This document shows, piece after piece, positions 10,979 through 30,403 of a stretch of 37,028 nucleotides of DNA. Under the pieces are notes generated by a model. That model was not told where the DNA came from. It saw only the letters and a program-made list of their open reading frames with translations, and made no database searches. Numbering within the stretch: the first letter of the stretch is position 1; the number at the start of each line of letters is the position of its first letter. The stretch covers positions 1 through 37,028 of IMG/VR virus record IMGVR_UViG_3300017527_000054; one strand, 5' to 3'. The translations under genes and the position numbers were made by a program. Source of the DNA: a virus.

Positions 10979-11127
10979 ATAAACACCGTCCTTTTTATTG
11001 CTCTTAAATAATGAGTAATAATAACCATAATAATTTGCCACCAACGAAGATTAAAAATTACATAATACTTACCATCAATAAACTTTTCCTCGATTCCGTT
11101 TCTTAAATAAAATGGAAATTTAGCCAT
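10966..11127 (-). CDS. 53-residue small protein between tape measure and Dit
   Basis: The ATG at 11127 directly follows the tape-measure TAA, with AAGGGGG seven bases upstream. The stop lies 13 bases inside the Dit gene. The sequence MAKFPFYLRNGIEEKFIDGKYYVIFNLRWWQIIM... has an aromatic/hydrophobic middle and a basic end. The context and perfect ribosome-binding site make it a likely real small gene, perhaps a tail assembly factor. No family is recognised. Confidence 0.6.
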   Translation of the reverse strand: MAKFPFYLRNGIEEKFIDGKYYVIFNLRWWQIIMVIITHYLRAIKRTVFIWLN

Positions 11128-13932: not shown

Positions 13933-14850
13933 TTATCCTGTATAAAGAAGTGATATTTCATCATCCCCTGTGTTCTGTGCCATCTCACCTGCTATCTTAT
14001 CTCTGAGCATACCATTGTCATCTTCTAACTCTGGCTCAAATGGATTGAACTTAGGCATGGTTATGGTAAGTAAGCCACCAACTGTATAGCTTAACTCTCT
14101 TTGATTTGTTAGAACATCACCCCTGAAATCATAGGATGTTTCAACTTGTGTTTCAGGATTAAATGATGCAACAGGTGCTCTACCTGTAATCTCAAAACCC
14201 TGGATTGCAAGAGCATCACTCAAATCTGCTCTCTTAGCAAGAGTGTTAGCCAAATCCCAATCAAGCATCTTACCAATCAATGTTGTCTTGGAGTTATAAG
14301 ATAGTGTTCCATTTTTACATACTGCTGTTGTGGTATCTAGCGTAGGTGTTGATATAGCGGCAACAGTAGGTGCGGCTGACCTGTAACCTGAGAAGTTGAA
14401 CTCATACATCATAAACTGTCCGGCTTCACAAGTTGCCTTTACTGAACCTCTACATCCTGTTACCTTATGAACTCTACCGCCCTTATACACCCAAAGAGTA
14501 ACAGATTCAATACCTGTTGATCTAGGTGTATATTCAACAGATGTGCCACCTGTGATTGTTTCTTCTAATGCACATCCCTTTAATAAAGCACCAACCCTGG
14601 GTGCTGTTCCTGCCGAACCTGAACCGAACATAATTGCCTTAAAAGATACATCTACTGACCTCTCACCTAAAATAGATGGCAACCTACTCAAGTTACCTAT
14701 CTGTGCCTGTCTTTCTAACGGTGGTGATTGCTCTGTGATAGTGATGTCCTGTGCTTCAATAGCATTTGCACCCACAGTTGGAGTTGGATCAGTTCTGTAA
14801 GTGGTTTCCACCTTTGCCAAAACTAATGCGTTTCTTGTTAATACAACCAT
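13933..14850 (-). CDS. major tail tube protein
   Basis: The protein has 305 residues. It starts MVVLTRNALVLAKVETTYRTDPTPTVGANAIEAQDITI, a typical opening of siphophage tail tube proteins. It continues with ERSVDVSFKAIMFGSGSAGTAPRVGALLKGCAL and a C-terminal QGFEITGRAPVASFNPE domain. The order tail completion, tube, chaperones, tape measure is canonical. It would polymerise into the tail tube. G6 precedes the ATG, fitting a highly expressed gene. Confidence 0.85.
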   Translation of the reverse strand: MVVLTRNALVLAKVETTYRTDPTPTVGANAIEAQDITITEQSPPLERQAQIGNLSRLPSILGERSVDVSFKAIMFGSGSAGTAPRVGALLKGCALEETITGGTSVEYTPRSTGIESVTLWVYKGGRVHKVTGCRGSVKATCEAGQFMMYEFNFSGYRSAAPTVAAISTPTLDTTTAVCKNGTLSYNSKTTLIGKMLDWDLANTLAKRADLSDALAIQGFEITGRAPVASFNPETQVETSYDFRGDVLTNQRELSYTVGGLLTITMPKFNPFEPELEDDNGMLRDKIAGEMAQNTGDDEISLLYTG

Positions 14851-16244: not shown

Positions 16245-16542
16245 TATTTTTATCTATTAACTCTTTGTTAAGATTAGGATTATTAGATTTCTCAACTTCA
16301 ATACTACCATCTGCCTTGACCTTCTCAGCGAACTCAATACCCTTCTTTGCCGCTTCAGGAAAATACTTATCCTCTAATATATTCTGCACCCTAGTAACAA
16401 ACACACCCAACACTTCCTCTGGCTCTTGCATCAGAACATCAATGTCTAACATTTTGTATAACTTCTCAATATCCTTATCGATGGCTTCCTCGATCTTATC
16501 CATCTCATCTAAGTGCTTGATTATAACTTTATCTAATCCCAT
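16237..16542 (-). CDS. hypothetical helical protein in the neck gene cluster
   Basis: The protein has 101 residues, acidic and helical: MGLDKVIIKHLDEMDKIEEAIDKDIEKLYKMLDIDVLMQEPEEVLGVFVTRVQNILEDKYFPEAAKKGIEFAEKV. No family is recognised. The ATG lies within the last codons of the glycosyltransferase gene without a clear Shine-Dalgarno, implying coupled translation. Position suggests a connector or assembly helper. Confidence 0.6.
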   Translation of the reverse strand: MGLDKVIIKHLDEMDKIEEAIDKDIEKLYKMLDIDVLMQEPEEVLGVFVTRVQNILEDKYFPEAAKKGIEFAEKVKADGSIEVEKSNNPNLNKELIDKNNV

Positions 16543-17276
16543 GATTTGTGAAATGCAATCCCTCTTGCCTTTGATGTTTCCTGATACTTATTCTTTCCCA
16601 TACACCCATAGTTGTTAATAGATGAGTTGATAGCATGGTAATATCTTCCATTGGCTTTGTTCATGTGGGCAACCCATTGGTCTACCCCCATCTCTTTCAT
16701 AGTCAAGTAAAAATCATGATCTTCCCATCCATACCCTACCTCACCAAACACACCATCTTCCCTCAACCTCAACCCCATATCAAACAGCCATCTTCTATAC
16801 ATCCCATAGAACAAACAAGCCGCTTTCTGTGTTCTTGGCTCAAACAATGTGTGGCAGTAATCTTCATGGAACTTACAATGCTCAGTATTCTTTTGGTTCT
16901 GCCACTTGTTAGGTTTGAACCCTATTGTTTGGCACTCATCATGGTGATCCAAGTAATCCATCAGCATAAAGATGCTATTCTTTACAGGTAACACATCAGC
17001 ATCAAGTAAAAGAACATAATCACCAATAGATTTCTCAATACCCTGATTCTTCCCCTTAGAAATTCCAAGATTTTTTCTGTTACTGATGATGTGAAGATTG
17101 TCATTTACCCACACCTTCTGCTTTCCCTTCAAGAACTCTATACTGCCATCCTTTGAGCCATTGTCCACCACAATAACCTCAAAGTCATTGTCAAAGCACT
17201 CGGTTTCTAAAACCTCAAGGGTATCTTTAAGAACATTCTTGCAGTTCCAATTAAGGATATTAACAGATAACCTCAT
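16533..17276 (-). CDS. family 2 glycosyltransferase embedded in the virion gene cluster
   Basis: The protein has 247 residues and is a clear GT2: SVNILNWNCKNVLKDTL, then EVIVVDNGSKDGS (nucleotide-binding, residues 33-45), LLLDADV (DAD at 92-94, metal site) and GYGWEDHDFYLTMKEMG (catalytic ED region, near residue 195). It transfers a sugar from a nucleotide donor. It sits between the head-tail adaptor and neck genes with a 4-base ATGA overlap and a good AGGAAGG site, so it is expressed with virion proteins. Glycosylation of a structural protein, or of the host surface late in infection, is the natural inference. Confidence 0.85.
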   Translation of the reverse strand: MRLSVNILNWNCKNVLKDTLEVLETECFDNDFEVIVVDNGSKDGSIEFLKGKQKVWVNDNLHIISNRKNLGISKGKNQGIEKSIGDYVLLLDADVLPVKNSIFMLMDYLDHHDECQTIGFKPNKWQNQKNTEHCKFHEDYCHTLFEPRTQKAACLFYGMYRRWLFDMGLRLREDGVFGEVGYGWEDHDFYLTMKEMGVDQWVAHMNKANGRYYHAINSSINNYGCMGKNKYQETSKARGIAFHKSWD

Positions 17277-18175
17277 GCCCTTCCTATCCGTATCTGTGCC
17301 GCACCATACCCTTCTTCATCACCCTGTATGAACCCACTCTCATCCTCATCATACTGTAATCTCATCCCATTAAATGCATCATTAAACAGTTCCCAATACC
17401 TATTACCTAGCATATGCCACTTGTCATCAGGTTCATCCATCAAATCAAGACAAATAAAATGCACAGTAAGGTATATCAACGGAACTTTAATCTCGCTACT
17501 CTCCAAGATCAAAGAATGCCTTTTGCCCTTATTGAGTAACATAGTTTCTATCTTCTCAAAACTCTGTGTGATCTGTTTACTCCAAGACCTTATAATCCTA
17601 TACCTGCTTGTATTGTCAGGATTAGTTGCCCAGTTAGGTGTTACTGAAATAACACCTGTTGACTGCACAAAGTCAGTAATATCTCTCATCTGGTTCGGCC
17701 CTGTGCCACCTATAATCTCAATTGTGCCACCATTCCAATAATCATCTGCTTCTTTCCTCTGTGCTGTATCTGTCAATGTTCCTGCCGCACCGGCTGTTGC
17801 TGTTGATGTATCCTGTATCTGAGTTTTCCTCAATGAGTTCAACTCATTGTATAGATCATCATCTGTAATAGGTATTGACAGAATACTCAAGACTACATCA
17901 AACAACTGATCCTCATACCTTGTTTCACCACTAATGGTATATTCCCAAGTGGCTTTGTAATTCAGATCCTTTGTAGCTGTGTGGGTAGCTGTAATTGAAT
18001 AAGTCATCTCTCCTGTTGTAGCATCCCTAGAAGCACTTGCCTGGGCCTGTAATGTAGCACCATCCGGCTTGTAAAGAGTGATTTTTACACTATCAGCAGG
18101 TATTAGAGGTCTATTATTCTCATATGCTGTCAGGCGAATTGTGCCTGTTTTCTCTTTCAGAAATTGCTGTTTCAT
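17273..18175 (-). CDS. head-tail adaptor / neck protein
   Basis: The protein has 300 residues. The N-terminal TGTIRLTAYENNRPLIPADSVKITLYKPDGATLQ is a BppU-like beta sandwich as seen on phage adaptor or baseplate upper proteins. The middle contains STATAGAAGTLTDTAQRKEADDYWNGGTIEIIGGTGPNQMRDITDF, and the C-terminal helical part SLILESSEIKVPLIYLTVHFICLDLMDEPDDKWHMLGNRYWELFNDAF resembles gp6/gp15-type head-tail connectors. It probably forms the ring between portal and tail. GGGGGAG precedes the ATG. Confidence 0.6.
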   Translation of the reverse strand: MKQQFLKEKTGTIRLTAYENNRPLIPADSVKITLYKPDGATLQAQASASRDATTGEMTYSITATHTATKDLNYKATWEYTISGETRYEDQLFDVVLSILSIPITDDDLYNELNSLRKTQIQDTSTATAGAAGTLTDTAQRKEADDYWNGGTIEIIGGTGPNQMRDITDFVQSTGVISVTPNWATNPDNTSRYRIIRSWSKQITQSFEKIETMLLNKGKRHSLILESSEIKVPLIYLTVHFICLDLMDEPDDKWHMLGNRYWELFNDAFNGMRLQYDEDESGFIQGDEEGYGAAQIRIGRA

Positions 18176-18311
18176 TATACTCCCCCTTGATAAGTGCTTC
18201 TAAATTTGTGATCTTATTATCTAATTTCTCAATATGATGCCTTAATACCTGTTGAATTGTCTTGATGTTATTCAATTCATGCTCTGCTACTTGAAGATAT
18301 CGTTTTTGCAA
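18120..18311 (-). CDS. small coiled-coil hypothetical protein
   Basis: The protein has 63 residues. The frame begins with a TTG at 18311 inside the end of the previous gene (GGTGA upstream) and ends 56 bases inside the adaptor gene. HELNNIKTIQQVLRHHIEKLDNKITNLEALI is a heptad-type coiled coil. Without it a 111-base gap would remain in an otherwise gapless operon. The start is uncertain and the long 3-prime overlap lowers confidence. Confidence 0.45.
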   Translation of the reverse strand: MQKRYLQVAEHELNNIKTIQQVLRHHIEKLDNKITNLEALIKGEYNETAISERENRHNSPDSI

Positions 18312-18526
18312 ATCTGTTCACCATTATCCTTTTCAGGAAAATATGTAGCTGACAAATCCAACATCTTGTATACATGCTCTAAATGCTCTAATGACTTATT
18401 GATTATCTTTTCTCTTTCCAATATAACTCTCTTAAATTCTTGGTTGTTCTCTCTGGCATCTTTGGCAATCTGACTTAATTCATATACAGATTTAGAAATC
18501 ATATGTAAGAAGTCAGCTTGTTTCAT
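18287..18526 (-). CDS. small helical hypothetical protein
   Basis: The protein has 79 residues, largely helical and charged: MKQADFLHMISKSVYELSQIAKDARENNQEFKRVILEREKIINKSLEHLEHVYKML. The ATG overlaps the stop of the previous membrane protein (ATGA). It forms a set of three consecutive small coiled-coil genes (18774-18120) between the 346-residue protein and the adaptor. Function is unknown. Confidence 0.6.
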   Translation of the reverse strand: MKQADFLHMISKSVYELSQIAKDARENNQEFKRVILEREKIINKSLEHLEHVYKMLDLSATYFPEKDNGEQICKNDIFK

Positions 18527-18774
18527 AACTTCTGTTCAATTCTTCTTAATGTATCTTTCTGTTCTTTTACATTCTCTATCATCATTTCCTGCCTAGCATC
18601 AATCCTGGTTACTATCTCCTTTGTTACATGATTATCTGCCCTGATTTCAGTATGTTCATCTGTATTTCTTCTATCATTAGTAATAATCTCTTTGCCACCA
18701 AATATAAGGGCAGTAATAATAATTCCAGATGGTATTAACTTAATTGCTTCAGCCATTATTGTTCTTAAAGGCAT
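18523..18774 (-). CDS. small membrane-anchored coiled-coil protein
   Basis: The protein has 83 residues. A short transmembrane-like stretch (IKLIPSGIIITALIFGGKEII, about residues 11-31) precedes a charged coil that ends IENVKEQKDTLRRIEQKL. It has a good AAGGAG site. The topology resembles small phage membrane proteins such as holin-like or spanin-like ones, but it lies within structural genes rather than in the lysis cluster. No family is recognised. Confidence 0.6.
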   Translation of the reverse strand: MPLRTIMAEAIKLIPSGIIITALIFGGKEIITNDRRNTDEHTEIRADNHVTKEIVTRIDARQEMMIENVKEQKDTLRRIEQKL

Positions 18775-18776
18775 AA

Positions 18777-19817
18777 CTACTCCTTAGTTCTTAGTCTATC
18801 TGATGTTGTTGGTTCTTCCAACCTGCAATACCCACTTATATTAGATACATCCACCCCTGTTACAGCCGGTGCTATAAAGAACCCTTGCACATAATTATTG
18901 ACATCTATATGTGATATATAATACTCATACTCACTTGCTGTTATACTTGCTAATACTCTCCTACCTGCATTGTTAGGGAACTTCTTAGTTGCCTCACTCC
19001 CACTAATCTCTCTAACCCAAGCATCCCTGTTTGAAGAATTGGCATTGTCAATATGCATTAATGCTATATCTGCATCAGCACTATCATTCCCTTCCAGGGA
19101 TGTTCCAGTAATGCCTTCCTGATCCCAACTCCCTACAGTTGTTACCACCTCATCGACATCATCTTCCATGTGATTCCATCCACAATCAGATGACATATAA
19201 CCCATCTCATAGATGTAAACCTGCCTAGTAGGTGTCTTGCCTGACCTGTTTTGGTATGTCCAGTAAACATTATTCGTTCCGTCATTCTGAACTTTAACAA
19301 CACCCCAATCATGTGATTGGTTCGGCTGTGCTGTATTAGGATTCACGCTGTTAAGCGATCTGCAACCCCAATTGCCGCCATTATTGAAATGAGTTCTTGT
19401 AATAGCGAACTCACCATCACCACCACCTGACAAGAGGTTCTTTGTCCATGTGTTCGCTGTATAAGAACAGGCCACACCATCAGAGTGTGCTGTTACGCTA
19501 TCACCACCAAACTCTGCATGTAAATAGAACTTCTGTGTTGCCGCTGTCTTATGTATTACAACCTGGTTGCTTCCATTCAAAGAACTAGGTGAAATCATTG
19601 TGCTGTTAGCAATATGATTTCTTGTCTTAAATGCCATTAAAGAGCCAACAGGGTAAACACCCATAACACCTGTTACTGTATTCGTTCCCACAATAACAAC
19701 TATCTTGGGATCGTCATGCTCTAACAAAGAACTTAAATCTATGGTTTGCGCACCTGTGGTTAAGGGAACGGTTATTTCTTTTGAAGCCAGGTCATTGTGG
19801 ATTATTACTGCCGCCAT
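18777..19817 (-). CDS. virion-associated beta-rich hypothetical protein
   Basis: The protein has 346 residues starting MAAVIIHNDLASKEITVPLTTGAQTIDLSSLLEHDDPKIVVIVGTNTVTG. A Gly/Asn/Thr-rich beta pattern follows, with GGGDGEFAITRTHFNNGGNWGCRSLNSVNP, VYWTYQNRSGKTPTRQVYIYEMGYMS and WDQEGITGTSLEGNDSADADIALMHIDNAN. This composition suits a decoration, fibre or head-associated protein. No named family is recognised. It overlaps the ACP-like gene by 26 bases. Confidence 0.6.
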   Translation of the reverse strand: MAAVIIHNDLASKEITVPLTTGAQTIDLSSLLEHDDPKIVVIVGTNTVTGVMGVYPVGSLMAFKTRNHIANSTMISPSSLNGSNQVVIHKTAATQKFYLHAEFGGDSVTAHSDGVACSYTANTWTKNLLSGGGDGEFAITRTHFNNGGNWGCRSLNSVNPNTAQPNQSHDWGVVKVQNDGTNNVYWTYQNRSGKTPTRQVYIYEMGYMSSDCGWNHMEDDVDEVVTTVGSWDQEGITGTSLEGNDSADADIALMHIDNANSSNRDAWVREISGSEATKKFPNNAGRRVLASITASEYEYYISHIDVNNYVQGFFIAPAVTGVDVSNISGYCRLEEPTTSDRLRTKE

Positions 19818-20130
19818 TTGGTAAATATCTCTCTATTAAATCTACTGCATCTCTTACTGTGCCTACACCGGCTATCTTTGAATATAACCTATCTTCTTTC
19901 CCACCACCTGTATACCCATAATCCGTAAAATGAAGTTCTATGGCCATCCATATCGCAAGAGCATCTAATGAATCAACAAAAGGTGTGCTGTTAATCTTTG
20001 TGTCTAATGTTACCTCATCATCAGTAATAACACTTGTAGAGAAATTCTGCCCTTCGTATTTTTTCCTAATACATATAAGTTCTTCTTTAATCACTTTTAT
20101 GCAATGTTGCTCTAAGGTGGCTCTGTCCAT
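19792..20130 (-). CDS. acyl-carrier-protein-like protein
   Basis: The protein has 112 residues from the ATG at 20130; a second ATG four codons upstream is possible. It opens with helix CIKVIKEELICIRKKY like ACP helix I. VDSLDALAIWMAIELHF then lines up with the ACP signature GADSLDTVELVMALEEEF, with Ser54 (codon at 19969-19971) at the phosphopantetheine position. GTVRDAVDLIERYL matches ACP helix IV. An 18-residue insertion (TDYGYTGGGKEDRLYSKI) replaces the usual short loop. If modified by a host phosphopantetheinyl transferase it could carry an acyl or other thioester. No partner synthase is encoded. Likeness is by eye only. Confidence 0.6.
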   Translation of the reverse strand: MDRATLEQHCIKVIKEELICIRKKYEGQNFSTSVITDDEVTLDTKINSTPFVDSLDALAIWMAIELHFTDYGYTGGGKEDRLYSKIAGVGTVRDAVDLIERYLPNGGSNNPQ

Positions 20131-20299
20131 CTTCAATAGCATCCAATGTTTTGAATAAACCCTTATATGACCTTAACATCTCTATTCTTCTCGGATCGTG
20201 TATTCCCTTATCCAGGAAATGGTCAATAGTTTTTAGTGTTGCATATATACACCCAAACGCTTCTTCCTCACTCAATCCAAAGTGTTCCTCAACTGTCAT
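20087..20299 (-). CDS. small helical hypothetical protein upstream of the ACP-like gene
   Basis: The protein has 70 residues: MTVEEHFGLSEEEAFGCIYATLKTIDHFLDKGIHDPRRIEMLRSYKGLFKTLDAIEDG... It is all-helical and small. It starts four bases inside the end of the preceding gene (ATGA-like overlap) and overlaps the ACP-like gene by about 44 bases, so the two are likely co-translated. No family is recognised. A partner role for the ACP-like protein is only suggested by position. Confidence 0.6.
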   Translation of the reverse strand: MTVEEHFGLSEEEAFGCIYATLKTIDHFLDKGIHDPRRIEMLRSYKGLFKTLDAIEDGQSHLRATLHKSD

Positions 20300-20847
20300 G
20301 GCAAATCCTTAGTATACTTCAGCATATCCGCCGCTGAAATACTTATAGTTGGCTTATCATTTGATGCTGATGCATCTTTCTGCCCTTTCAACTCATCACT
20401 ATATATATCAAATCTTGGTTTGCCTACAAAGGCAGGTATATACTGCTTAAAATAATAATCCAACCAACTTAATGTAATCAATGAACCCTCATAATCCATA
20501 GCATAACAATCAGCATCGGTTGTGTGGTTATATGTATCAAACATCTTAGCTTGTTGATAGAAGTATGATGTTCTCTCAACATCTTTGGGCATATCATTAG
20601 CTATCTTGTTATCAAATAGAAACTTCTCAACCTGTTTACCCAAAAGAGCTTCTTCTGTCAGGAACTCTTTAGTTGTTATCTTCCTATGTATCCTCTGCAT
20701 TGCTATGTCTTGAACATCAACAGCTAATTTACTCAATACACTCTTAAATATAGTTGTATCCCCATCCACAAGATATTTCTTTGCAAGATACTCATACCAA
20801 GTGATCTTGCCATCTTTATACTCTTTGACAATCTCAGATAGTTTCAT
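20296..20847 (-). CDS. hypothetical protein of the accessory virion block
   Basis: The protein has 183 residues from the ATG at 20847, whose ATGA overlaps the previous stop. A GTG at 20868 with AGGTGATG upstream is an alternative start. The protein opens MKLSEIVKEYKDGKITWYEYLAKKYLVDGD and is helical with DVERTSYFYQQAKMFDTYNHTTDADCYAMDYEGSLITLSWLDYYFKQYIPAF in the centre. The C-terminus DKPTISISAADMLKYTKDLP is polar. No family is recognised. Confidence 0.55.
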   Translation of the reverse strand: MKLSEIVKEYKDGKITWYEYLAKKYLVDGDTTIFKSVLSKLAVDVQDIAMQRIHRKITTKEFLTEEALLGKQVEKFLFDNKIANDMPKDVERTSYFYQQAKMFDTYNHTTDADCYAMDYEGSLITLSWLDYYFKQYIPAFVGKPRFDIYSDELKGQKDASASNDKPTISISAADMLKYTKDLP

Positions 20848-21593
20848 TTTATTTTGGCTGTCCAACACACATCATCACCTGCATTATCACTACCACAATA
20901 AATAAACTGATCTGCCTTTAAATCAACTGATAAATGTGTAGGTGATTTGTTGCCATAAGTAGCACTTGGCACAGATGTGTTCTTGAATGCCCACCTTATT
21001 GTTCCATCTTCATTTTCTTTAGTTACAACTAGAGTGTAATCACTTTTCGGCACACTACCTGATTGTGGCACTTGATACCAAGTATCTGCACTTGCTAGTG
21101 CAACTGTTCCTGCTGTTCCTGCTCCACCTAGTCCAAACAATTTTAGCACCTGTATCTTTGCATTAACTACTGCCCTTTTAATATTAGATTTTGTTACCCT
21201 GACAGATTGCTGAAACTTGGCAATCCTGTTTGTAGGTGTAACCCTGACAGTAAGAGGTGTTATCACAAACCTGGTAACCTTATACCCCTTACCTGGAACT
21301 GTATATTCTACAATTGCTAGTTGCCCATCTAAGACAACTACTCTATACGCTTTGTTTAGTGTTGGATCAAGAACATATACTATATCATCCCTGGGTGTTG
21401 AAACAGAGATGATGGCTAACTCAGCATCATCAATAAATAACTGATAGTAAGTTCCTGCATTTATATCATCTTCAAATATTGGCTCATCACTTGCAGTATC
21501 AGCAGTTGCTTCAAAATAAAGCTGTTCATCATCAACCTTGAGTGCATAATTCTGTGCTGTGGTTCTATCCGTAACAATATATTGACTAGCCAT
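20844..21593 (-). CDS. beta-rich structural hypothetical protein
   Basis: The protein has 249 residues: MASQYIVTDRTTAQNYALKVDDEQLYFEATADTASDEPIFEDDINAGTYYQLFID. Repeated beta strands (VYVLDPTLNKAYRVVVLDGQLAIVEY), a basic middle (RVTKSNIKRAVVNAKIQVLKLFGLGG) and a C-terminal WYQVPQSGSV...CWTAKIK follow. It looks like a virion surface or fibre component. No family is recognised and it has no signal peptide, unlike its two neighbours upstream. Confidence 0.6.
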   Translation of the reverse strand: MASQYIVTDRTTAQNYALKVDDEQLYFEATADTASDEPIFEDDINAGTYYQLFIDDAELAIISVSTPRDDIVYVLDPTLNKAYRVVVLDGQLAIVEYTVPGKGYKVTRFVITPLTVRVTPTNRIAKFQQSVRVTKSNIKRAVVNAKIQVLKLFGLGGAGTAGTVALASADTWYQVPQSGSVPKSDYTLVVTKENEDGTIRWAFKNTSVPSATYGNKSPTHLSVDLKADQFIYCGSDNAGDDVCWTAKIK

Positions 21594-21594
21594 A

Positions 21595-22146
21595 TTATTT
21601 CCGTTGATATTGCCAAATAGTATGATCTCTGCCCAATGCTACACTCACACATGGGAATGTATAATCACCACCATCTGTGTTAAGGCAAGGCACTTCTTCA
21701 AAATTAGCACTTCCCTGCCATGACTGCCAATCATCTAATGCTTTCTCAAACTCAGGAACATCCATCAACTGCACAGCAAAATAAGCACCACTACCATCAC
21801 CGCTTGACACAGCACTAGCGAATCTATCAGCACTCACCTTGACACCGTTAGAATAATACTGCACAGGTTGGGGTAAACTGCCACTATGATCCTGAATGAA
21901 TGCTCTCCATTCCTCAATGCCATACTGCCCATCTGAGGTAAACCATACCTTGCCACCCTCTACCCAACTTGCAGGGTTGGGGAAGTATTGCAGGGATTTA
22001 GTGAAATTAACCTTAGTGATCGTGCTTTCCTTTACTGCCACATAATCAGTATTGAAATCCAAGTCCTTAGTCATCAGTTCTGGAATACACCCTATACACA
22101 TCACTAAGATAATCCATATTGCCATAAGTAATAGTTTCTTACTCAC
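21595..22146 (-). CDS. putative lipoprotein of the accessory virion block
   Basis: The protein has 183 residues from a GTG with GGGGGTG upstream. The N-terminus KKLLLMAIWIILVMCIGCIPELM is an export signal. CIGC resembles a lipobox with Cys20 (counting the GTG as residue 1) as acceptor, though Cys at -3 is unusual. The mature part has SWVEGGKVWFTSDGQYGIEEWRAFIQDH, VKVSADRFASAVSSGDGSGAYFAVQLMDVPEFEKALDDWQ and two Cys near the end that could form a disulfide (VPCLNTDGGDYTFPCV). Its function is unknown. An exported phage protein made with virion genes may act at the envelope. Confidence 0.6.
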   Translation of the reverse strand: MSKKLLLMAIWIILVMCIGCIPELMTKDLDFNTDYVAVKESTITKVNFTKSLQYFPNPASWVEGGKVWFTSDGQYGIEEWRAFIQDHSGSLPQPVQYYSNGVKVSADRFASAVSSGDGSGAYFAVQLMDVPEFEKALDDWQSWQGSANFEEVPCLNTDGGDYTFPCVSVALGRDHTIWQYQRK

Positions 22147-22160
22147 TATTGCACCCCCTA

Positions 22161-22514
22161 TTAAATACCAAGTTTGATCTTTACTGCATTTGTAATAGTG
22201 GTTTTAATATTACTGCCATTGTTGATAGCAGTTACTAGCTGTGTAAACTCTGTAGATGTTTCATCTTCAGGTGTGTCAGGGTCATCTGCAACATTCATAA
22301 AAATCACCGTAACACTACCCCCAACAGGATCACCATTAGAATCAACCTTGCGGTAAGTAACCTCACAGGTTTTGGTGAACACCAAGAACCTTACTGTATC
22401 AAGTTTCCACACAGCCACATCAGGTTTAACTTCTGCCTTTGTGATGTCGCCATCAGCCGCATAGGCAACTGTGTAAAAAATGCACAATGCTAATGTTAGT
22501 AATAGTTTCTTCAT
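22161..22514 (-). CDS. secreted hypothetical protein
   Basis: The protein has 117 residues with a clear Sec signal peptide: KK, LLLTLALCIFYTVAYA, cleavage at AYA|AD near residue 19. The mature part is beta-rich and polar: VKPDVAVWKLDTVRFLVFTKTCEVTYRKVDSNGDPVGGSVTVIFMNV. A Pro/Asp/Glu stretch (DDPDTPEDETST) and a helical end follow. No family is recognised. It has AAAAGGGGGAGAG before the ATG. Confidence 0.65.
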   Translation of the reverse strand: MKKLLLTLALCIFYTVAYAADGDITKAEVKPDVAVWKLDTVRFLVFTKTCEVTYRKVDSNGDPVGGSVTVIFMNVADDPDTPEDETSTEFTQLVTAINNGSNIKTTITNAVKIKLGI

Positions 22515-22525
22515 CTCTCCCCCTT

Positions 22526-24919
22526 TTAGTTAGCGGCACATACCGCACAGATCGCTATTGAGTTATCCTCACCTATTTCAGTTCCGGCATCACAGGTTCC
22601 GTCATCATCTACTGTGAGAATACAGTTATTGTTTGCTCCGACAAGTGTTATGGCATCAAGAATCTTAACTGTTCCACTCCCGACATCAATCACTCCATCA
22701 GTAACATTGTGAGTTAAAGAAATCCATTCATCATTAGCAGTATTGGGTGGAGTAGCAGATTGAACATAAAGGGTGGGATCTGTTGCCAATGGATGATCGT
22801 AATCTTGGTCTATACCTGCTATATCACCTATGATAAAATGATTTCCGGCATTATCGTGTGGTGTAAATGTTGTCTGGATAAAATCCTTGTCGCTTTTCCA
22901 CCTGACCATTGTTGTTCCTTCATCCATAAGATATATAGCGGCATTACTAACACTAAGTTTCAATTCACTACCTACACCTGTTTGAATAACTGCATTTTGT
23001 TGGTCATGATACATCTCGATGTAGTCATCAGCGTTAGTATCATCAGCAGAGTATATCCTTAACGTAGGATCAGTTGCAGAAGTGTTGGGTATCCTATCAT
23101 CATCTGCTTCATCGCCTACATTCATCAAACTTATATAATTAGTGCCTGACTCTAGAACACCAGTTCCTACATCATCTGCATCTCCATTGTGGGTAAGACC
23201 CATATATTGAATATTGGATGTATCTGGGTCAAGGTCAGAGTGTATATAGAGAGTAGGATTAGTCTGAGTAGCATGGTCGTGGTCTTTACCTGCACCCCAA
23301 TGACTTATAACATACTGATTTCCTGTTTCATCTTTTAACTGCCATATAAACTGATAGAAAGTAGTGTTATCATAGGAGAAATTAACTCCTGCTGTTCCAT
23401 TCCGTAGAAAAGCAACAGAACCCCATCCAGAATCATATATTATCCCTTCTGGAGCATCAAACTGTAAATCTCCTGCTCCTGATACAATCTGTGCATCAGT
23501 CTGGTCATGATACATCTCAATGTAGTCTGTGGATACACCTTCATCGGCAGAATACACTCTTAGATGTGGATCAGTATCACTCACATCAGGAACTCTAGTA
23601 TCTCCTTCTTCTTGCAAAATAAAATCGCCATCATTTCTTAATGCGATTTCATCTTCCATCCAAGTAAGCAATCCGTTGCTAGTAGTGGCATCAAACATTA
23701 AATAAAAATCAGTATTCCCCCCGTAACCTATTCTTGTACTCCGGTCAAAAATAAAAGCATCCTGTCCTGCGTTATAGTATATGTTCCCATCTGTGCCATT
23801 ATCAATATTAAAAACTATAGACGGAAGTGGTGTCGGACTACCCCCAGTTCCACTTCCAAGTGTAAGCCCATGTCTATTAAATTCTCCAATTTCAAGAGGT
23901 GCAATTACATTATCGTAGTAAATAGTAACATCGTCTGGGTGGTTGTTCTGAGCACCAAAATATATTCTGTTTACTCCATAAGTTCCATAAGTATTACCAC
24001 TAAAATTTGTTTTTAAGGTTAATGCGTCTGCCCCTTCTGCAATCCACCATTTAAAGTACCCATCTGTGGGATGACGATAATAACTCATTTTTATATGATA
24101 CCAAGTACCAGTAGTTACATTTGTTTCGTCTTGATTTGTTATTAAGGTATCTGAACCATTTGTATAAGCACCACCGATTTTTAATTGCCCCCCGTCATCT
24201 CTCAGCCGTATGCTTGATAAAACACCAGCACCTATTGTGTTTTGTGCGTTTATTAATCGCATTACTGTTATTGATGTTACATCATCGAGATAAACCATAG
24301 CTTCCATAGTAACAGAATCAATCTCATCTGTAAATTGTCTATGGGCTAATACCTCTGTCAATCCTGCACTATCAGGAACTACATCAGCTTTAACACCGTA
24401 ACTTCCGGCATAAGGTGTTGTTCCAGATATTGCGATTGTAGAACTTTGGTGTGTTTCAGTATGCCATAAATTTAAAGAGTTTTGTTCAAAGTCATCGGTG
24501 GGGTTTATAATAATGCCAAGTGTGTCTACATCTGTTCCAGAATTAATTGTTACCTTATCTGATATTGATTCAAAATCCAATGTTAGATTCTCGTTATTAC
24601 TCCCACTTGTTCCCCCTAATGTTAAAGTACCCGAATCAGCTAATATCGCATTACCTGAAACCGCTTCCCACTCACCTGCTGTATCACACTCACCGGCACT
24701 AGGCACACACTTATAGAACTGATCTAATGTAGTGTCATAACAGAGATGCCTTGCTTTCCCATCTGTCAAAGCATCACAATCGGCACTCTGCCTATATATC
24801 CACAGATATGTTTGGGCATTAGCAACTGCCGCCAACCACATTAGGAATATGAACATTACTATTGATATGAGTATCGGTAATATAGTTTGAACCAGGAAAT
24901 CTCTAGCATTAAATCTCAT
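22526..24919 (-). CDS. large secreted-looking repeat protein with LamG-like domain
   Basis: The protein has 797 residues. Residues 8-35 are a long hydrophobic segment ending AVANA|Q, a Sec signal or anchor. Cys-rich linker CDALTDGKARHLCYD...CVPSAGEC follows. Residues of about 140-345 look like a concanavalin/LamG-type jelly roll (TPYAGSYGVKADV, FTDEIDSVTMEAMVYL, GTWYHIKMSYY, VTIYYDNVI). Two tandem repeats of about 165 residues start near 447 and 616, each with DPxLRxYSAD, DYIEMYHDQ, DPTLYxxS and LTHN. The C-terminus has four more Cys. It is probably a fibre or surface-acting adhesin; the signal peptide is odd for a virion protein. Confidence 0.65.
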   Translation of the reverse strand: MRFNARDFLVQTILPILISIVMFIFLMWLAAVANAQTYLWIYRQSADCDALTDGKARHLCYDTTLDQFYKCVPSAGECDTAGEWEAVSGNAILADSGTLTLGGTSGSNNENLTLDFESISDKVTINSGTDVDTLGIIINPTDDFEQNSLNLWHTETHQSSTIAISGTTPYAGSYGVKADVVPDSAGLTEVLAHRQFTDEIDSVTMEAMVYLDDVTSITVMRLINAQNTIGAGVLSSIRLRDDGGQLKIGGAYTNGSDTLITNQDETNVTTGTWYHIKMSYYRHPTDGYFKWWIAEGADALTLKTNFSGNTYGTYGVNRIYFGAQNNHPDDVTIYYDNVIAPLEIGEFNRHGLTLGSGTGGSPTPLPSIVFNIDNGTDGNIYYNAGQDAFIFDRSTRIGYGGNTDFYLMFDATTSNGLLTWMEDEIALRNDGDFILQEEGDTRVPDVSDTDPHLRVYSADEGVSTDYIEMYHDQTDAQIVSGAGDLQFDAPEGIIYDSGWGSVAFLRNGTAGVNFSYDNTTFYQFIWQLKDETGNQYVISHWGAGKDHDHATQTNPTLYIHSDLDPDTSNIQYMGLTHNGDADDVGTGVLESGTNYISLMNVGDEADDDRIPNTSATDPTLRIYSADDTNADDYIEMYHDQQNAVIQTGVGSELKLSVSNAAIYLMDEGTTMVRWKSDKDFIQTTFTPHDNAGNHFIIGDIAGIDQDYDHPLATDPTLYVQSATPPNTANDEWISLTHNVTDGVIDVGSGTVKILDAITLVGANNNCILTVDDDGTCDAGTEIGEDNSIAICAVCAAN

Positions 24920-25305
24920 TTTAACCTCTTAATTGTATTTGTATTGGCACTAAACCCTAACTCCCTCAAGCATCTACCTCTGCATTGATACTTGCATATA
25001 GGATTCTTGGGATCATAGATATGTTCAATCACATATGCTTTTGAAACTGATGGCTGATAGTAACTGTTGAAGTCCTGCACCTTATTCCCATGCCTGTCCT
25101 TGACACTAAGCCACCTTCTCATCCTTAGATTGAATCTGGCATTGTAGTAGTCAATTTGTTTCTGGTTAAGGTGCTTTGTAAGGGGATTCAGCTTGAGTTT
25201 ATATGGCTGATGCCCTTCTTTCAGCACATAGTTTCTTGGGCATTTGATCTTGCCAAATACAGCAACACCCTTCTGACTCTCATTCCACTCCTTTAGCAGA
25301 ACCAC
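24916..25305 (-). CDS. basic hypothetical protein with C-terminal Cys motif
   Basis: The protein has 129 residues from a GTG at 25305 overlapping the previous gene by 26 bases. It is basic (NQKQIDYYNARFNLRMRRWLSVKDRHGNK) and ends with a Cys cluster, CKYQCRGRCLRELG. No family is recognised. Its place is two genes after the major capsid protein. Possible roles are a capsid-associated or DNA-binding protein. The following gene starts with an ATGA overlap. Confidence 0.55.
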   Translation of the reverse strand: MVLLKEWNESQKGVAVFGKIKCPRNYVLKEGHQPYKLKLNPLTKHLNQKQIDYYNARFNLRMRRWLSVKDRHGNKVQDFNSYYQPSVSKAYVIEHIYDPKNPICKYQCRGRCLRELGFSANTNTIKRLK

Positions 25306-25735
25306 GCTTCCCCCTAGATTTCTTAGTTTTACCTAACTCATCAGCAACAACTTTGCCTGTTGCATCAGCTATGGTTTGTGCCATTTCAATAATATCTTTC
25401 TTTTTGGATTGCTTATGCCTTGCTATTCTCTGATCTTTCCATACCTTGTGTAGTTTCTTGTATTTGTCAGTTTGCTTATATGCATCAATTTGGGCATCTG
25501 TCCTCTTATCAAGATATAACTCAATTCCCTTCTTCATCCACCGCCTCATAGTATTCTCAGCATTCATTACTGTCATAGGGCCAATCTTCTTATTGAGTGA
25601 TGTCCATAGAGTAACTAGTTTATGATCCTGAAACTCCTTCATTGGTATAGTAACACCACCTGCACCATGTTTGCTCTTGAGTGAGTCAATCTTCATTAAC
25701 TCTTGTTCAAAATCTGATCTGTTCTCATTTACCAT
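25280..25735 (-). CDS. basic helical hypothetical protein after the major capsid gene
   Basis: The protein has 151 residues, strongly basic. It has helical N-terminal and central parts (FEQELMKIDSLKSKHGAGGVTIPMKEFQDHKLVTLWTSLNKKIG) and a Lys-rich C-terminus (HKQSKKKDIIEMAQTIADATGKVVADELGKTKKSRGKRGSAKG). The ATG has GGAGAGGG upstream. It is the first gene after the probable terminator behind the capsid gene. DNA or nucleoid binding is suggested by charge only. Confidence 0.6.
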   Translation of the reverse strand: MVNENRSDFEQELMKIDSLKSKHGAGGVTIPMKEFQDHKLVTLWTSLNKKIGPMTVMNAENTMRRWMKKGIELYLDKRTDAQIDAYKQTDKYKKLHKVWKDQRIARHKQSKKKDIIEMAQTIADATGKVVADELGKTKKSRGKRGSAKGVE

Positions 25736-25798: not shown

Positions 25799-25821
25799 AA
25801 AGAACTTAACATTGGTTAAGT
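25799..25821 (-). terminator. weak hairpin after the major capsid gene
   Basis: On the minus strand ACTTAAC-CAAT-GTTAAGT forms a 7-bp AT-rich stem (25821-25804) that includes the capsid stop codon. TCTTTTATG follows. It may be a partial terminator that raises capsid output relative to downstream genes. The remaining intergenic bases to 25736 hold only G/C runs (CTTAGGGGGGTG, CCCCCTGGGGA) of unknown use; no convincing promoter was found there. Confidence 0.4.
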
Positions 25822-26727
25822 AATTTCATTAAATTGCATCTCATTGGCATGTTTGTTTCTGAGGATTGCTTCACCCCAAAAACCTGTTCCTGTGATTTGA
25901 TCACCAATCTCACCAACAATAACTCTGTCAACTTCCATCTTGATGCCTTGCTTCTCAACATACTTAATTGCATCTCTTGAGAAAGCCGCACCTGATGCAT
26001 TGTTAGATGATACTGCCACATTGTTGTCTATATAAACATCGAAACCAAGTATCCTACCTGTGAAGCCATTTCGGGCAATGTCCTCTTGGACAGAACCTAA
26101 TGCTTCTGATTGAATCTTGCCTGATGTAGTTTCCATCAATGTGATGATACCTACTGTTCCCCAGAACTGTCCTGGTGTAACTACCAAGTTGTAAGGTAAA
26201 GGTGCAATACCTGCCCTTAACTCCTTGTATGCCGCATAAAGATCAGCAACTACAATGTCCTCATTTGCATCACCTTGATTCGGTGTAAAACTAGCAAACA
26301 ATGTTGCAAGATCTAAATCTCGCCTTACTGCTAAACATTGTCCGATTAACTGACCTGCCGCAACTGCTAGATCACTAACAGAACCCATAACAGCTAATGG
26401 CTTGAGCAACACAGTCGCACCATGAGCACCGACTGTTGCTTGGCTAGGTGATGTTTCATCACTACCACTTGTGTCAAGTGCCTGGTTAGCTAAGTTGCTG
26501 TCTGTTTCAGAGGTCAATCTTGTAATGAACGGAGTATCATGCACAATACCAGGGCCAGGGAATGCTACATTCCTAACCAATGGCTTGATAATATCTCCAT
26601 CATCCAATTCAAGTAAACATGCTTCAACAACTGTAGGGATAGCTTCTTCCATAGTTGTTGTAGTAGTTTCATTTGCCATACCCTTATTGCTTTGTAACTT
26701 TTGGATCAATCTTAAAAACCAATTCAT
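25816..26727 (-). CDS. major capsid protein (HK97 fold)
   Basis: The protein has 303 residues. The ATG at 26727 has AGGAGA at good spacing; an internal ATG at residue 17 (MANETTTTTMEEA) is a second possible start. The core shows VGAHGATVLLKPLAVMGSVSDLAV, VADLYAAYKELRAGIAPLPYNLVVTPGQFW, GFTGRILGFDVYIDNNV and EVDRVIVGEIGDQITGTGFWGEAIL, the layout of HK97-fold coat proteins. It lies directly after portal and scaffold. It assembles the icosahedral head. Confidence 0.85.
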   Translation of the reverse strand: MNWFLRLIQKLQSNKGMANETTTTTMEEAIPTVVEACLLELDDGDIIKPLVRNVAFPGPGIVHDTPFITRLTSETDSNLANQALDTSGSDETSPSQATVGAHGATVLLKPLAVMGSVSDLAVAAGQLIGQCLAVRRDLDLATLFASFTPNQGDANEDIVVADLYAAYKELRAGIAPLPYNLVVTPGQFWGTVGIITLMETTSGKIQSEALGSVQEDIARNGFTGRILGFDVYIDNNVAVSSNNASGAAFSRDAIKYVEKQGIKMEVDRVIVGEIGDQITGTGFWGEAILRNKHANEMQFNEIT

Positions 26728-26754: not shown

Positions 26755-27528
26755 TCAAAGGATAGCATTTATGCCTTTCTCAGCTTGTTTTGCTGAAATT
26801 CTCGCTTTGATTTCAATGACCTTCTGCCTGTTGCCACTTCTCATAGCGGCTTCCAGTTCTCTGGCATCCTTCATAGGATCATCAGAGCCAATCTGCCCAC
26901 CTGTTCCACCTGTGGCAGGTGGTGAGCCACTTCCCCCATGTCCTGTTGATTTGACAAGGTATTGTCTATCTTTCAAAAATGCCTTCACCCCTTCCTCTAC
27001 GGAAAGTAAATCCTCTACTCCACTAGCATTCTTGCCTTTGATCTTGACAATTCCTTTGTCATCTATTTGGGCAAGTGATTTGACTAACTGAACAGCATCT
27101 AAATAACCGTTCTGTTTAGAAATCTCTGCTGTGAGAGAATGAGTAATCTGCATATCCTTGATCGTGGTGTTATGCTTATCAATCAATCCCTTATATTCGT
27201 TCTCTTTAGTTGACCAACCTTCTTTCAACTTATCATACTCTTTTGCTTCCTCTAGCTTGGCTTGTTTCTTGCTTTCTTCATCAACTTGGTATTTCTGCAA
27301 CTGATCTTGAAGTATCTTGACCTGCTCTTGAGTAGCCATTAAATCAGTTTGCATACCCTTCTTGTTCTCAGCCATCATGTGATTCACTTGATCTTGTGTG
27401 AATGATTTAGTTTCTGTGGGTGAGGGTGGCGATGCAGGATCACCACCTGCTTCACCCCTTTCACCTAAATTCAAGATAGCTAACATACCAAGATTGGATA
27501 ATACTGCTAAACAAAATAATCTAAACAT
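26755..27528 (-). CDS. scaffolding protein with hydrophobic N-terminus
   Basis: The protein has 257 residues from the ATG at 27528, with GGGGGG at good spacing and an 8-base overlap with the portal stop. The long central coiled coil (FTQDQVNHMMAENKKGMQTDLMATQEQVKILQDQLQKYQ), acidic/basic alternation and Gly-rich linker (GHGGSGSPPATGGTGG) before a C-terminal helix RQKVIEIKARISAKQAEKG are typical of capsid scaffolds. The N-terminus MFRLFCLAVLSNLGMLAILNLGE is signal-like, which is unusual. It would direct head assembly and then leave the shell. Confidence 0.75.
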   Translation of the reverse strand: MFRLFCLAVLSNLGMLAILNLGERGEAGGDPASPPSPTETKSFTQDQVNHMMAENKKGMQTDLMATQEQVKILQDQLQKYQVDEESKKQAKLEEAKEYDKLKEGWSTKENEYKGLIDKHNTTIKDMQITHSLTAEISKQNGYLDAVQLVKSLAQIDDKGIVKIKGKNASGVEDLLSVEEGVKAFLKDRQYLVKSTGHGGSGSPPATGGTGGQIGSDDPMKDARELEAAMRSGNRQKVIEIKARISAKQAEKGINAIL

Positions 27529-29095
27529 TAAAACCCCCCTTTTTCTCACCCTGTTGGGTAACAGTTTTCTTTCTTAAACCTAATCTATCAAAAAGCCGAT
27601 TGCCACCACCATTACCATTACCGCCACTTAACTTATCTTCACCTGTGGATTCCATGTCGGCTACTAATTCATCAATTTCCTCATCCGGCTTTCTTGGGAA
27701 CTTCTTTTTAATAACTGCCTTCTTAACTTCCTGATTCACCATATTCCCAAGTCCTAGCATAAGCATCTTCTTGGCTTCCTCAAGGTCATCATCTAGCTTC
27801 TGGATACTGAACTCATTAGGATACACCACATGACCTTCAAACTCCTTACCTTCCCACTTAGAGAACATCTGCCACATCTTCATCTCACCATCTTCATAGT
27901 TCTGTGATTTCTTGGATAAGGCAGAGTTGGTTTGGTTGAAATCCCATGCCTTGCTTGTGCCACTCTGATTTACTGCTGTTTGCCCTTTAGATGCCATACT
28001 CCCACTCTCTAGCTTGGCTAACTGAAACATCTTTTCAACTTGCCTCTCAATCTGATCCATAATCACCCTTGCATTGTCAGCAGGTGGAGAAACATACTGA
28101 GGTGCATTGTGTCCTTCAGGATAGATCAACCCTTTATTTGTGCCAACCTCTGTTTCCTGGTAACTAGCTGATTTACCCTGTAATGCCAAGAATGAGAATG
28201 TTTGATTCCTTGTGATTTCCTGTAACTCAGAACATAGATTATACACATCCCTTGCTACAAAGGAAATATCAGCAATAGCACTAACTCCTAAGAAATTCTT
28301 TACCTTCTTACTTGGCTTGTCCTTAACACAAACAATAGGCACTTCTTTGAGTTGATGTGTGCCTTCTGCTATCTGTTCATAATCAGTATTAAACACCATC
28401 CATCCTTCTCTTGTCCACAACCTATAAGTTGTATTCATGGGATTCTCTTTATCATAATTCTCCCAATTCGTATTCCCATCCTGCACATCTTTGAGAAGCA
28501 CCCAATATGGCTTACCAAACTGGTCTAAACTCCAGTTCATTACCATCTGTGGATGATACTGCACAAAGTAAGGGAATTGGTCATTGACTACCCTCTGCTG
28601 TAAATTCAACTCACCCTGGTTCTGTGGCATATCCACCAACACAAATGAATGACCATAGATTTGTGAGAGGTCGGCAGATGACCTTCTGAACTCATCTATG
28701 CTAGAACCCATCCTGTCCACATTCTCCTCACGCTTCTCAACAGTATCCTCAATATTCATAAATTCTTCCATGACCGGCTGTTTAAACAAATGGTCTGTGA
28801 ATATGTCAATTATAGGTGCTGTGAAGTTGTAGTAATAACTCATCCTGATCCTCTCAGCGAAATCTTCGTATCGTTCCTTCTTATGCTTGAATAGATTGGT
28901 ATTCTCTGTCCTTGTGTATTTCTTACCCTCAACAACAAGATCAAACGAACCCACATTCTTAATTCTGTCATAAGGCACATTAGCACCTGTATAAGACAAC
29001 CCCCCTTCATAGGTATCCAATAGGAAATTCCAATAGTTCAAGTTCTCCCTGTAGATTGGATGTGGATTCTCGATCATGTCTTTAATGTTAGCCAT
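27521..29095 (-). CDS. portal protein
   Basis: The protein has 524 residues, the usual portal size, directly downstream of the large terminase. Features include an N-terminal NPHPIYRENLNYWNFLLDTYEGG, IIDIFTDHLF, YGHSFVLVDMP, YHPQMVMNWSLDQFGKPYWVLL and a C-terminal acidic region rich in Lys/Glu. It forms the dodecameric ring through which DNA enters and leaves the head. It ends overlapping the scaffold start. Confidence 0.85.
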   Translation of the reverse strand: MANIKDMIENPHPIYRENLNYWNFLLDTYEGGLSYTGANVPYDRIKNVGSFDLVVEGKKYTRTENTNLFKHKKERYEDFAERIRMSYYYNFTAPIIDIFTDHLFKQPVMEEFMNIEDTVEKREENVDRMGSSIDEFRRSSADLSQIYGHSFVLVDMPQNQGELNLQQRVVNDQFPYFVQYHPQMVMNWSLDQFGKPYWVLLKDVQDGNTNWENYDKENPMNTTYRLWTREGWMVFNTDYEQIAEGTHQLKEVPIVCVKDKPSKKVKNFLGVSAIADISFVARDVYNLCSELQEITRNQTFSFLALQGKSASYQETEVGTNKGLIYPEGHNAPQYVSPPADNARVIMDQIERQVEKMFQLAKLESGSMASKGQTAVNQSGTSKAWDFNQTNSALSKKSQNYEDGEMKMWQMFSKWEGKEFEGHVVYPNEFSIQKLDDDLEEAKKMLMLGLGNMVNQEVKKAVIKKKFPRKPDEEIDELVADMESTGEDKLSGGNGNGGGNRLFDRLGLRKKTVTQQGEKKGGFNV

Positions 29096-29107: not shown

Positions 29108-30403
29108 TTATATTGGGATACCTGTTGTTAATTCCCTATTCAAACTATGCTCTGATTCTATAAAATACCCTAGTGCATCTGATGCGTGAGTGAGTTTTAA
29201 ATTCTTTCCCTTGTCAATATGTGTAGTTCCCTCTTTGTAAGACACCTGCTCAAAATCAGCTATGAGATGCTTACACTTCGGATTAATTAGCACTCTCCTG
29301 TCTTGAGTGCTAGAGCATATCATCCCATTAACTGAGTTAATCCTATCTCTCTCACCAGGATTGGATAAAGATACACGGTTACTAACTCTATATTGCCCTA
29401 ACTCATTCTCAATAATTTGATAGTTAGTTATATTACTATTAGTGTGTCTTGCCTTGCCGGTAGCATCACCATAGAGATTCACACCTGACCTGTGAGTCGG
29501 ATACCTGCTCTTAAACTCATTACAACACTCGATTGTGTTAGAGTTGCGAATGTATATCTCATCAATAACCCTGATCTCTTTTAAGCCATCGCTTGTAAAT
29601 CCATATTGAGTGATTACCCATGCCATAGGATCAACATTGAAATCACAGCATAGGTTGAGTGGTAGGTTAGGATTGTATTGTGATACCTTGAAAGCTAAAT
29701 CACCTGCATTGTATCTTCTATCAAATGCGTAGTAGGTTTGACCGGCGAATACAACAATCTTGCCCATGATTTCCTGCTCCATGAACTTACTGTCGTATTT
29801 CTGTGCTAATGAGTCAATCGCTTCCTTGCTGATGGTGGTGTTCTCATATGTGCTGAACCTGACTGTTCCATAGTCCTTCTGCTTCTTCTCAACAAAGACC
29901 TCATGCAGATCATCAAATGAGTTCGGGGATGATGTAACAAATATCTTTCCATCTGTAGATAACACCCTGCCAAGCAACACATCCCATAACTCCATGAAGT
30001 TCTTACATTCCCTTGCCTCATCAACCCACCCACCCATAAGGGTAACATTCCTGATCTTATCTGGATTCTCTGCTGAGAAGCCAAACACTTCCCTCTTGTT
30101 TTTAAGAGTGATAATTTTCTTACTGTCATTCTCTTTTAAGATTAATGGCCTAGCCGCATTCTTAAACTCTCTCCATGTGGTTCTGTCAAGCATGTGGAAT
30201 GTGGGTGCTACTATACCAAATGGAATGTTAATATCAACCTTACTATTCCATGCCTGTTTAACAGCTTCCCTAGCACCGGCATAAGTCTTGCCACCCCTGA
30301 TGCCACAGAGCATGAGAACAAATCTCCACATATTATCACAAGCATAGTGGAATGCCTGTTGCCCTTCATGTGGTGTGTATTTCTTTAATCTCAATCTACC
30401 CAT
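29108..30403 (-). CDS. terL: terminase large subunit
   Basis: The protein has 431 residues. ATPase part: Walker A GIRGGKT at residues 34-40, Walker B and catalytic Glu in MGGWVDEA near residue 130, coupling motif SSPNS. Nuclease part: CCDFNVDPMAW near residue 245, LYGDATG near 320 and THASDALGY near 415, giving the three acidic residues of the RNase H-like nuclease. It cuts and pumps DNA into the prohead. The ATG has only a weak ribosome site (CTGGGG) and may depend on coupling to the small subunit gene (see that entry). Confidence 0.95.
   Translation of the reverse strand: MGRLRLKKYTPHEGQQAFHYACDNMWRFVLMLCGIRGGKTYAGAREAVKQAWNSKVDINIPFGIVAPTFHMLDRTTWREFKNAARPLILKENDSKKIITLKNKREVFGFSAENPDKIRNVTLMGGWVDEARECKNFMELWDVLLGRVLSTDGKIFVTSSPNSFDDLHEVFVEKKQKDYGTVRFSTYENTTISKEAIDSLAQKYDSKFMEQEIMGKIVVFAGQTYYAFDRRYNAGDLAFKVSQYNPNLPLNLCCDFNVDPMAWVITQYGFTSDGLKEIRVIDEIYIRNSNTIECCNEFKSRYPTHRSGVNLYGDATGKARHTNSNITNYQIIENELGQYRVSNRVSLSNPGERDRINSVNGMICSSTQDRRVLINPKCKHLIADFEQVSYKEGTTHIDKGKNLKLTHASDALGYFIESEHSLNRELTTGIPI

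Follow-up and report, generated by a model that had tools for sequence, protein, structure and literature searches.

Predicted export signals on fibre-like proteins encoded in the late operon of an uncultured tailed phage

Tailed phages are taught as assembling wholly in the cytoplasm. The phage proteins known to be exported to the envelope, such as T5 Llp, Cor, SieA, lambda Lom and Bor, carry a Sec signal or lipobox, are encoded in a late or moron position, and are as a rule small lipoproteins or membrane proteins. A different route to the cell surface is taken by PblA and PblB of Streptococcus phage SM1, tail-type proteins that become surface adhesins; to our knowledge they carry no signal peptide and arrive at the surface once the cell has lysed. 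Lambda Lom has been mentioned as an exported phage envelope protein (PMC12309495). Here we analyse a stretch of 37,028 nucleotides (nt), positions 1-37,028 of IMG/VR record IMGVR_UViG_3300017527_000054, which belongs to an uncultured tailed phage and is referred to in its entirety as the window. Among its structural genes lie three consecutive genes, encoding proteins of 797, 117 and 183 amino acids (aa), whose products begin with predicted Sec-type signals. In contrast to the known envelope proteins, the fibre-like protein of the window is long, comes with a partner and is coupled in translation to late structural genes; the 183-aa protein, which is lipoprotein-like and for which no homologue was found, is a candidate for a small receptor-blocking lipoprotein of the Llp/Cor type. 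Our tentative reading is that the three genes supply the exported components of a receptor-binding module that is accessory and occupies a variable position in the late operon; its fibres would join particles at lysis.

Three predicted export signals in the late operon

The original prediction, made from the sequence of the window, had described three open reading frames (ORFs) with Sec-type N-termini within the structural block. All three are present, on the minus strand (Table 1). Signals were called with a simple, transparent heuristic in place of SignalP, based on charge, a hydrophobic 9-mer and an AxA-type or lipobox site. By this rule all three N-termini are of signal type: a basic n-region leads into an extended hydrophobic core, followed by a cleavage site made up of small residues. 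The sequences are MRFNARDFLVQTILPILISIVMFIFLMWLAAVANA↓QTYLW in the 797-aa protein, where both AVA↓N and ANA↓Q are acceptable as cleavage points, MKKLLLTLALCIFYTVAYA↓ADGD in the 117-aa protein and MSKKLLLMAIWIILVMCIG↓CIPE in the 183-aa protein. The 797-aa and 117-aa proteins have the charged n-region, uncharged hydrophobic core and small -3 and -1 residues expected of Sec/signal peptidase I substrates. The 183-aa protein is atypical, since its C-I-G-C has C instead of L at -3 of the lipobox L-[AS]-[GA]-C and is hence lipobox-like only. The strong ribosome-binding sites ascribed to the three genes were confirmed for the 117-aa (AGGGGGAGAG-ATG) and 183-aa (AGGGGGTGCAATA-GTG) genes, while that of the 797-aa gene (AAGAGGTTAAA-ATG) is moderate only.

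As had been proposed, the genes lie between capsid genes on one side and tail genes on the other: TerL, portal, scaffold and major capsid protein (MCP) are found upstream, and a minor tail protein, tape measure and tail protein downstream. They share the orientation of the structural genes and are tightly packed with the capsid genes, the ATG of the 797-aa gene sharing 4 nt with the stop codon of the gene before it, with gaps along the block of -4, 11, 14 and 1 nt. Promoter- and terminator-like sites are no more frequent than in shuffled sequence. Given this spacing and the lack of excess promoter- or terminator-like sites, the three genes are most simply part of the late operon, and the sequence supports their being real, co-expressed late genes. 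We considered a moron, which we rejected on the grounds of the 4-nt overlap, the 1-14 nt gaps to late genes and the shuffled-level frequency of promoter- and terminator-like sites; in one respect the block does resemble a moron, being accessory and absent at the same site in close relatives.

Neither Pfam nor PHROG gave a significant match to any of the three proteins, the 797-aa protein had no Pfam or PHROG match under 0.1 among curated fibre families, and tblastn of INPHARED with the 797-aa and 117-aa proteins returned zero matches. Relatives of the 183-aa protein were sought, including in Pfam and PHROG, and none was found. The sequence of the 797-aa protein nevertheless supports a fibre-like product. 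Repeated units occupy its C-terminal half and are common to two partial, signal-bearing homologues, L082 (35-36% identical over ~200 aa) and L083 (43-44% over 77-98 aa). Its eight cysteines all fall in two terminal clusters. The N-terminal cluster forms a cap that resembles part of a signal-bearing 439-aa fibre-like protein of locus L116 (52% over 54 aa, E 3e-10), in which all four cysteines align, directly behind the signal. Such terminal clusters would suit an oxidising compartment.

A variable site and signal-free counterparts

The close relatives of the window phage, all of them uncultured, form a clade of 33 IMG/VR loci whose terminase is 59-71% identical. Their gene order runs TerL, portal, scaffold, MCP, a homologue of 25280-25735 and a homologue of 24916-25305. 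In six loci (L009, L010, L022, L026, L030 and L033) a single gene of 100-140 aa (~0.3-0.4 kb) follows, and then the homologue of 17273-18175. The same site measures 6.7 kb in the window, ~7.5 kb in record G005 (loci L012/L084) and ~6.6 kb in G009 (L025/L085), and G011 (L087) has a shorter island. Judged from gene order, the block is an insertion at the variable site of the clade, outside the conserved head module. The 7-kb block of the original prediction thus exists, with an extent of ~6.7 kb (18176-24915). Its description as lacking a known counterpart holds for annotated counterparts; relatives hold analogous, non-homologous islands with different fibre-like proteins at the same site, and homologues of the 797-aa and 117-aa proteins are present in other phage lineages.

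Signal-bearing proteins of 154 to 1003 aa occur in the islands of L002 and L084 and at island starts in L013, L014 and L020. The L084 island encodes signal-bearing proteins of 1003, 154 and 662 aa, the largest of which matches the PHROG tail fibre family phrog_5668 (4.7e-40); that of L002 encodes signal-bearing proteins of 643, 156 and 422 aa, and that of L085 a signal-free 660-aa protein with three signal-bearing ones. The site therefore has the look of a cassette for fibre-type proteins, of which many, though not all, are predicted to be exported. Other kinds of gene are seen here as well. In L019 the island opens with a gene (L019:6634-9138) for an 834-aa protein whose start is glycosyltransferase-like by inspection, so that the site takes non-fibre genes too. 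Inside the window's island, 19792-20142 has a weak acyl-carrier-protein-like match (phrog_5934, E 0.01) and a DSL motif. Beyond it, 16533-17276 is a glycosyltransferase-like gene, by inspection, among the head-tail genes, with counterparts of 46-48% identity in the same place in several relatives.

Signals in the island exceed chance, as measured by the heuristic with its background of ~3%. The rule flagged 17 of 60 island genes of the clade and 8 of 232 core genes, the latter being only MCP, scaffold and one TerS (Fisher p = 8e-8, a value that overstates independence because the rows are related sequences). When the first 45 residues of island proteins were shuffled, 3.4% were still flagged, and in an unrelated group (L034-L080, TerL ~33% identical) the rule flagged a single ORF out of 416, all of 100 aa or more. 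Island proteins that reach 150 aa or more number 24; a site was predicted in 13 of them, and one more had a strong core without a recognised site.

Two cases point to the signal as a separable unit. The 117-aa family comprises the window protein and four others, each 50-59% identical to it; four of the five bear signals. The fifth (L092:7998-8294) is signal-free: it starts M-ADGDIT, which is the predicted mature start of the window protein, behind a ribosome site of its own, and the 295-aa gene directly before it is likewise without a signal. In the window and in records G013 and G014, the fibre homologue adjoining the 117-aa-type partner is also signal-bearing, and all homologues of the 797/117 pair in G013 and G014 have signals. 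In G020 the two lie far apart on the contig, the partner at its start and a signal-bearing fibre close to its end, and their adjacency is possible only. The second case concerns the signal-bearing fibres of L013 and L014, which at their mature N-terminus match a 536-aa protein of L101 that has no signal; there, a 17-aa N-terminal segment takes the place of L014's signal. L101 was the one new signal-free fibre from second scans with the 117-aa family and the L013/L014 fibre, which otherwise returned mostly known loci. The 154-aa protein of L084 was tried as a further homologue of the 117-aa protein; at 25-26% identity only, it was omitted from the family alignment. These comparisons support the Sec signal as a modular graft on phage proteins that also exist signal-free, and the 117-aa product as a partner of the 797-aa fibre.

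Signals on virion protein families in other phages

Matches to the PHROG tail fibre families phrog_5668, phrog_863 and phrog_6202 come from signal-bearing proteins, encoded either at the island site (L084/L012) or, in L088, in related modules. The annotated tail-fibre relative L109 (MW202484) has no signal at its N-terminus, and the window's 797-aa protein is without a significant family match. In G013/L088, a record in which no homologue of the window protein 17273-18175 was detectable, a signal-bearing 394-aa protein matches tail fibre phrog_863 (2.6e-20) and a signal-bearing 617-aa protein matches phrog_3287, 'virion structural protein' (1.9e-33). A signal-bearing 795-aa protein of G014 matches the head-closure family phrog_578 (3.6e-10).

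The 617-aa protein has two informative relatives. One, in L106 (39% identical), comes from another phage that is guanine-cytosine (GC)-rich and keeps a clear signal; the other, in L105 (52%), has a hydrophobic, signal-like N-terminus behind an uncertain start codon. A profile of the three (L088, L105 and L106) matched chain Y of PDB entry 9nwi (1.9e-06), a protein present there in six copies; its match to nozzle gp16 of 8zkk was weak (E 0.06). The core of these proteins is homologous to the podovirus tail nozzle or phage stabilization protein (Pseudomonas phage Clew-1, 9nwi chain Y), and their gene follows an adaptor-like gene, as in the podovirus nozzle order. The cultured nozzle homologues of BroderSalsa, LAh_6, Clew-1 and PJNS034 begin at the domain and have no signal; compared with this Clew-1 type, two environmental members have a predicted signal ahead of the domain, and the third has a segment resembling one. 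For ctDrO704, used as a further control, the match was partial and its N-terminus is weak evidence only. One copy each of the nozzle homologue was found in G013 and G022. A single-copy nozzle homologue with a signal is hard to read as an envelope modifier, which favours a virion role. As judged from homology, the tail-nozzle assignment applies to these related podovirus loci, not to the window itself.

A run of signal-bearing fibre-like proteins (133, 768, 241 and 524 aa), annotated as hypothetical, follows the tail protein in the publicly available genome of Caudoviricetes sp. vir555 (BK063671, L110), a phage that is T7-like by its annotated PHROGs and differs from the window in phage type and position. 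A stretch of its 768-aa protein is 60% identical to the L014 fibre over 60 aa. The host of the vir555 record is given as Methanomicrobiales, yet its annotated genes look T7-like and an endolysin is among them, and the host label may deserve a check. For the window phage, a scan of 84,980 genomes for TerL recovered one 5.7-kb contig in a Clostridia metagenome-assembled genome (L094, JAQVTZ010000117.1, TerL 63%), too little to name a host; the contig may be a misbinned phage contig.

Table 1. Features of the window and their positions (nt)
Feature	Position	Strand	Basis or comment
TerL (large terminase)	29108-30403		PHROG
Portal	27521-29095		PHROG
Scaffold	26755-27549		PHROG
Major capsid protein (major head protein)	25816..26727	-	phrog_267, 1.1e-07
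Island left flank, conserved gene	24916..25305	-	Homologues 28-54% identical, same place in clade
Variable island	18176..24915	-	Inserted between conserved 24916-25305 and 17273-18175; gene order in relatives
Exported fibre-like protein, 797 aa (predicted)	22526..24919	-	ORF, signal; signal peptide, Cys4 cap, repeats, C-terminal Cys4
Signal peptide of 797-aa protein, residues 1-35 (predicted)	24815..24919	-	Heuristic; cleavage AVA↓N or ANA↓Q
Four-cysteine N-terminal cap (C48, C60, C71, C78)	24662..24802	-	First part behind signal
56-nt direct repeat pair, 22971-23026 and 23472-23527	22971..23527	-	Encode ...YIEMYHDQ... repeat unit
C-terminal cysteine cluster (C766, C776, C791, C794)	22529..22624	-	
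Exported partner of fibre, 117 aa (predicted)	22161..22514	-	Signal; family of 5
Signal peptide of 117-aa protein, cleavage AYA↓A (predicted)	22458..22514	-	Signal-free homologue L092:7998-8294 begins at same point
Putative lipoprotein or exported protein, 183 aa	21595..22146	-	Signal; lipobox-like CIG↓C
Island right flank, conserved gene, putative head-tail connector region	17273..18175	-	Homologues 53-68% identical in relatives
Minor tail protein	13933-14850		PHROG
Tape measure	11128-13305		PHROG

Competing explanations and implications

The original prediction had offered three roles for the exported products, namely remodelling of the envelope, action as secreted adhesins or shields, and addition to virions after export. 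The last has the most support, because predicted Sec-type signals stand on genuine virion families, tail fibres and the tail nozzle, elsewhere. In the sequence of events that we propose, SecYEG would export the three products late in infection with cleavage of their signals, the 797-aa fibre would fold outside the cytoplasm, where its cysteine clusters could oxidise, and the 117-aa partner would help or join it there; the 183-aa protein may serve at the membrane as a tether or helper. Holin and endolysin would then open the envelope and the exported fibres would attach to the outcoming particles. This account is possible, and we hold it tentatively, since several observations weigh against it. 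Fibre-like proteins occur at the same site without signals in L019, L085 (660 aa) and L087. The fibre block is dispensable in the window's clade, and the signal-free tail-module proteins 7907-8647 and 9749-11044 look fibre-like by inspection, so the three proteins need not be virion parts. Efficient meeting of particles with exported fibres has no explanation, and cysteine content or density does not clearly separate signal-bearing from signal-free fibres. The 9nwi match spans only ~100 residues; the AlphaFold model of the nozzle homologue is unusable (predicted local distance difference test (pLDDT) 31), and that of the 117-aa protein (pLDDT 49) is likewise too poor to help.

With the block dispensable in relatives and other fibre-like genes in this phage, the window case alone suits equally well a role confined to the envelope, in which the exported proteins never enter virions and mask the phage's own receptor, by binding it in the periplasm or at the surface, or remodel the surface. 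Masking would bring about superinfection exclusion or stop progeny from adsorbing to debris. Since the block is dispensable, an envelope-remodelling or secreted-adhesin role is plausible in this phage, and the island, highly variable among relatives, includes a possible lipoprotein (183 aa). Exported phage proteins such as Llp, Cor and Bor, and Lom (PMC12309495), sit in the envelope, and the exported form in L014 may have lost a virion anchor, if this is what the 17-aa L101 segment replaced by the signal represents. We regard this envelope role as a strong rival, somewhat less probable than the virion reading given that signals are also borne by a single-copy nozzle homologue, that the 117-aa partner has a signal-free form beside a signal-free gene, and that the genes are coupled to capsid genes, not set apart like a moron. 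It is improbable that the hydrophobic N-termini stay uncleaved, as membrane-binding or membrane-penetrating segments for membrane-linked assembly or DNA entry. The N-termini of the clade's MCP and scaffold are also hydrophobic or amphipathic, which suggests some membrane-associated assembly; the flagged island proteins, however, mostly have n-, h- and c-regions with an AxA-type site, unlike those capsid and scaffold N-termini, and the signal-free 117-aa homologue starts exactly at the predicted cleavage point. Least credible, and very improbable in our view, is that the signals arise artefactually, from wrong start codons or a lenient predictor. The calls do come from a heuristic, and starts are uncertain for L105 and L082:5069, but in the window and most relatives a ribosome site precedes the start that includes the signal, the flagging rate is ~3% in shuffles and core genes and 1/416 in the unrelated group, and the signal is kept in a GC-rich relative at 39% protein identity.

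Hydrophobic or amphipathic N-termini of MCP or scaffold were noted in the window (25816-26727, 26755-27528) and in L012, L021, L024, L087 and L094. The window scaffold, read from the ATG behind the AAAAAGGGGGG site (26755-27528), begins MFRLFCLAVLSNLGMLAILNLG, and the L024 MCP begins MFKKLFNYFAMLLMLGVDTTTTTLTE. Such N-termini perhaps serve scaffold-capsid contact or membrane-associated assembly. Near the lysis region, 5970-6386 (a SleB-like hydrolase by inspection) and 7625-7891 (88 aa) also have hydrophobic, signal-like N-termini.

A limited search of the open-access literature came upon no description of tail fibres or nozzles bearing Sec signals. What is new is the combination, fibres, nozzles and signal peptides each being of known kinds. 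A broader proposition, which we consider unlikely though worth stating, is that several unrelated tailed phages finish their adsorption apparatus outside the cytoplasm: fibres, their partners and some podovirus nozzles would pass through Sec, fold under oxidising conditions and be added to DNA-filled particles once the envelope opens. The 117-aa protein, which occurs with and without a signal, offers a natural matched pair for testing. Sec signals found repeatedly ahead of fibre and nozzle domains that are signal-free elsewhere would mean a second assembly compartment for tailed phages, or else that phage fibres are widely used as exported envelope proteins.

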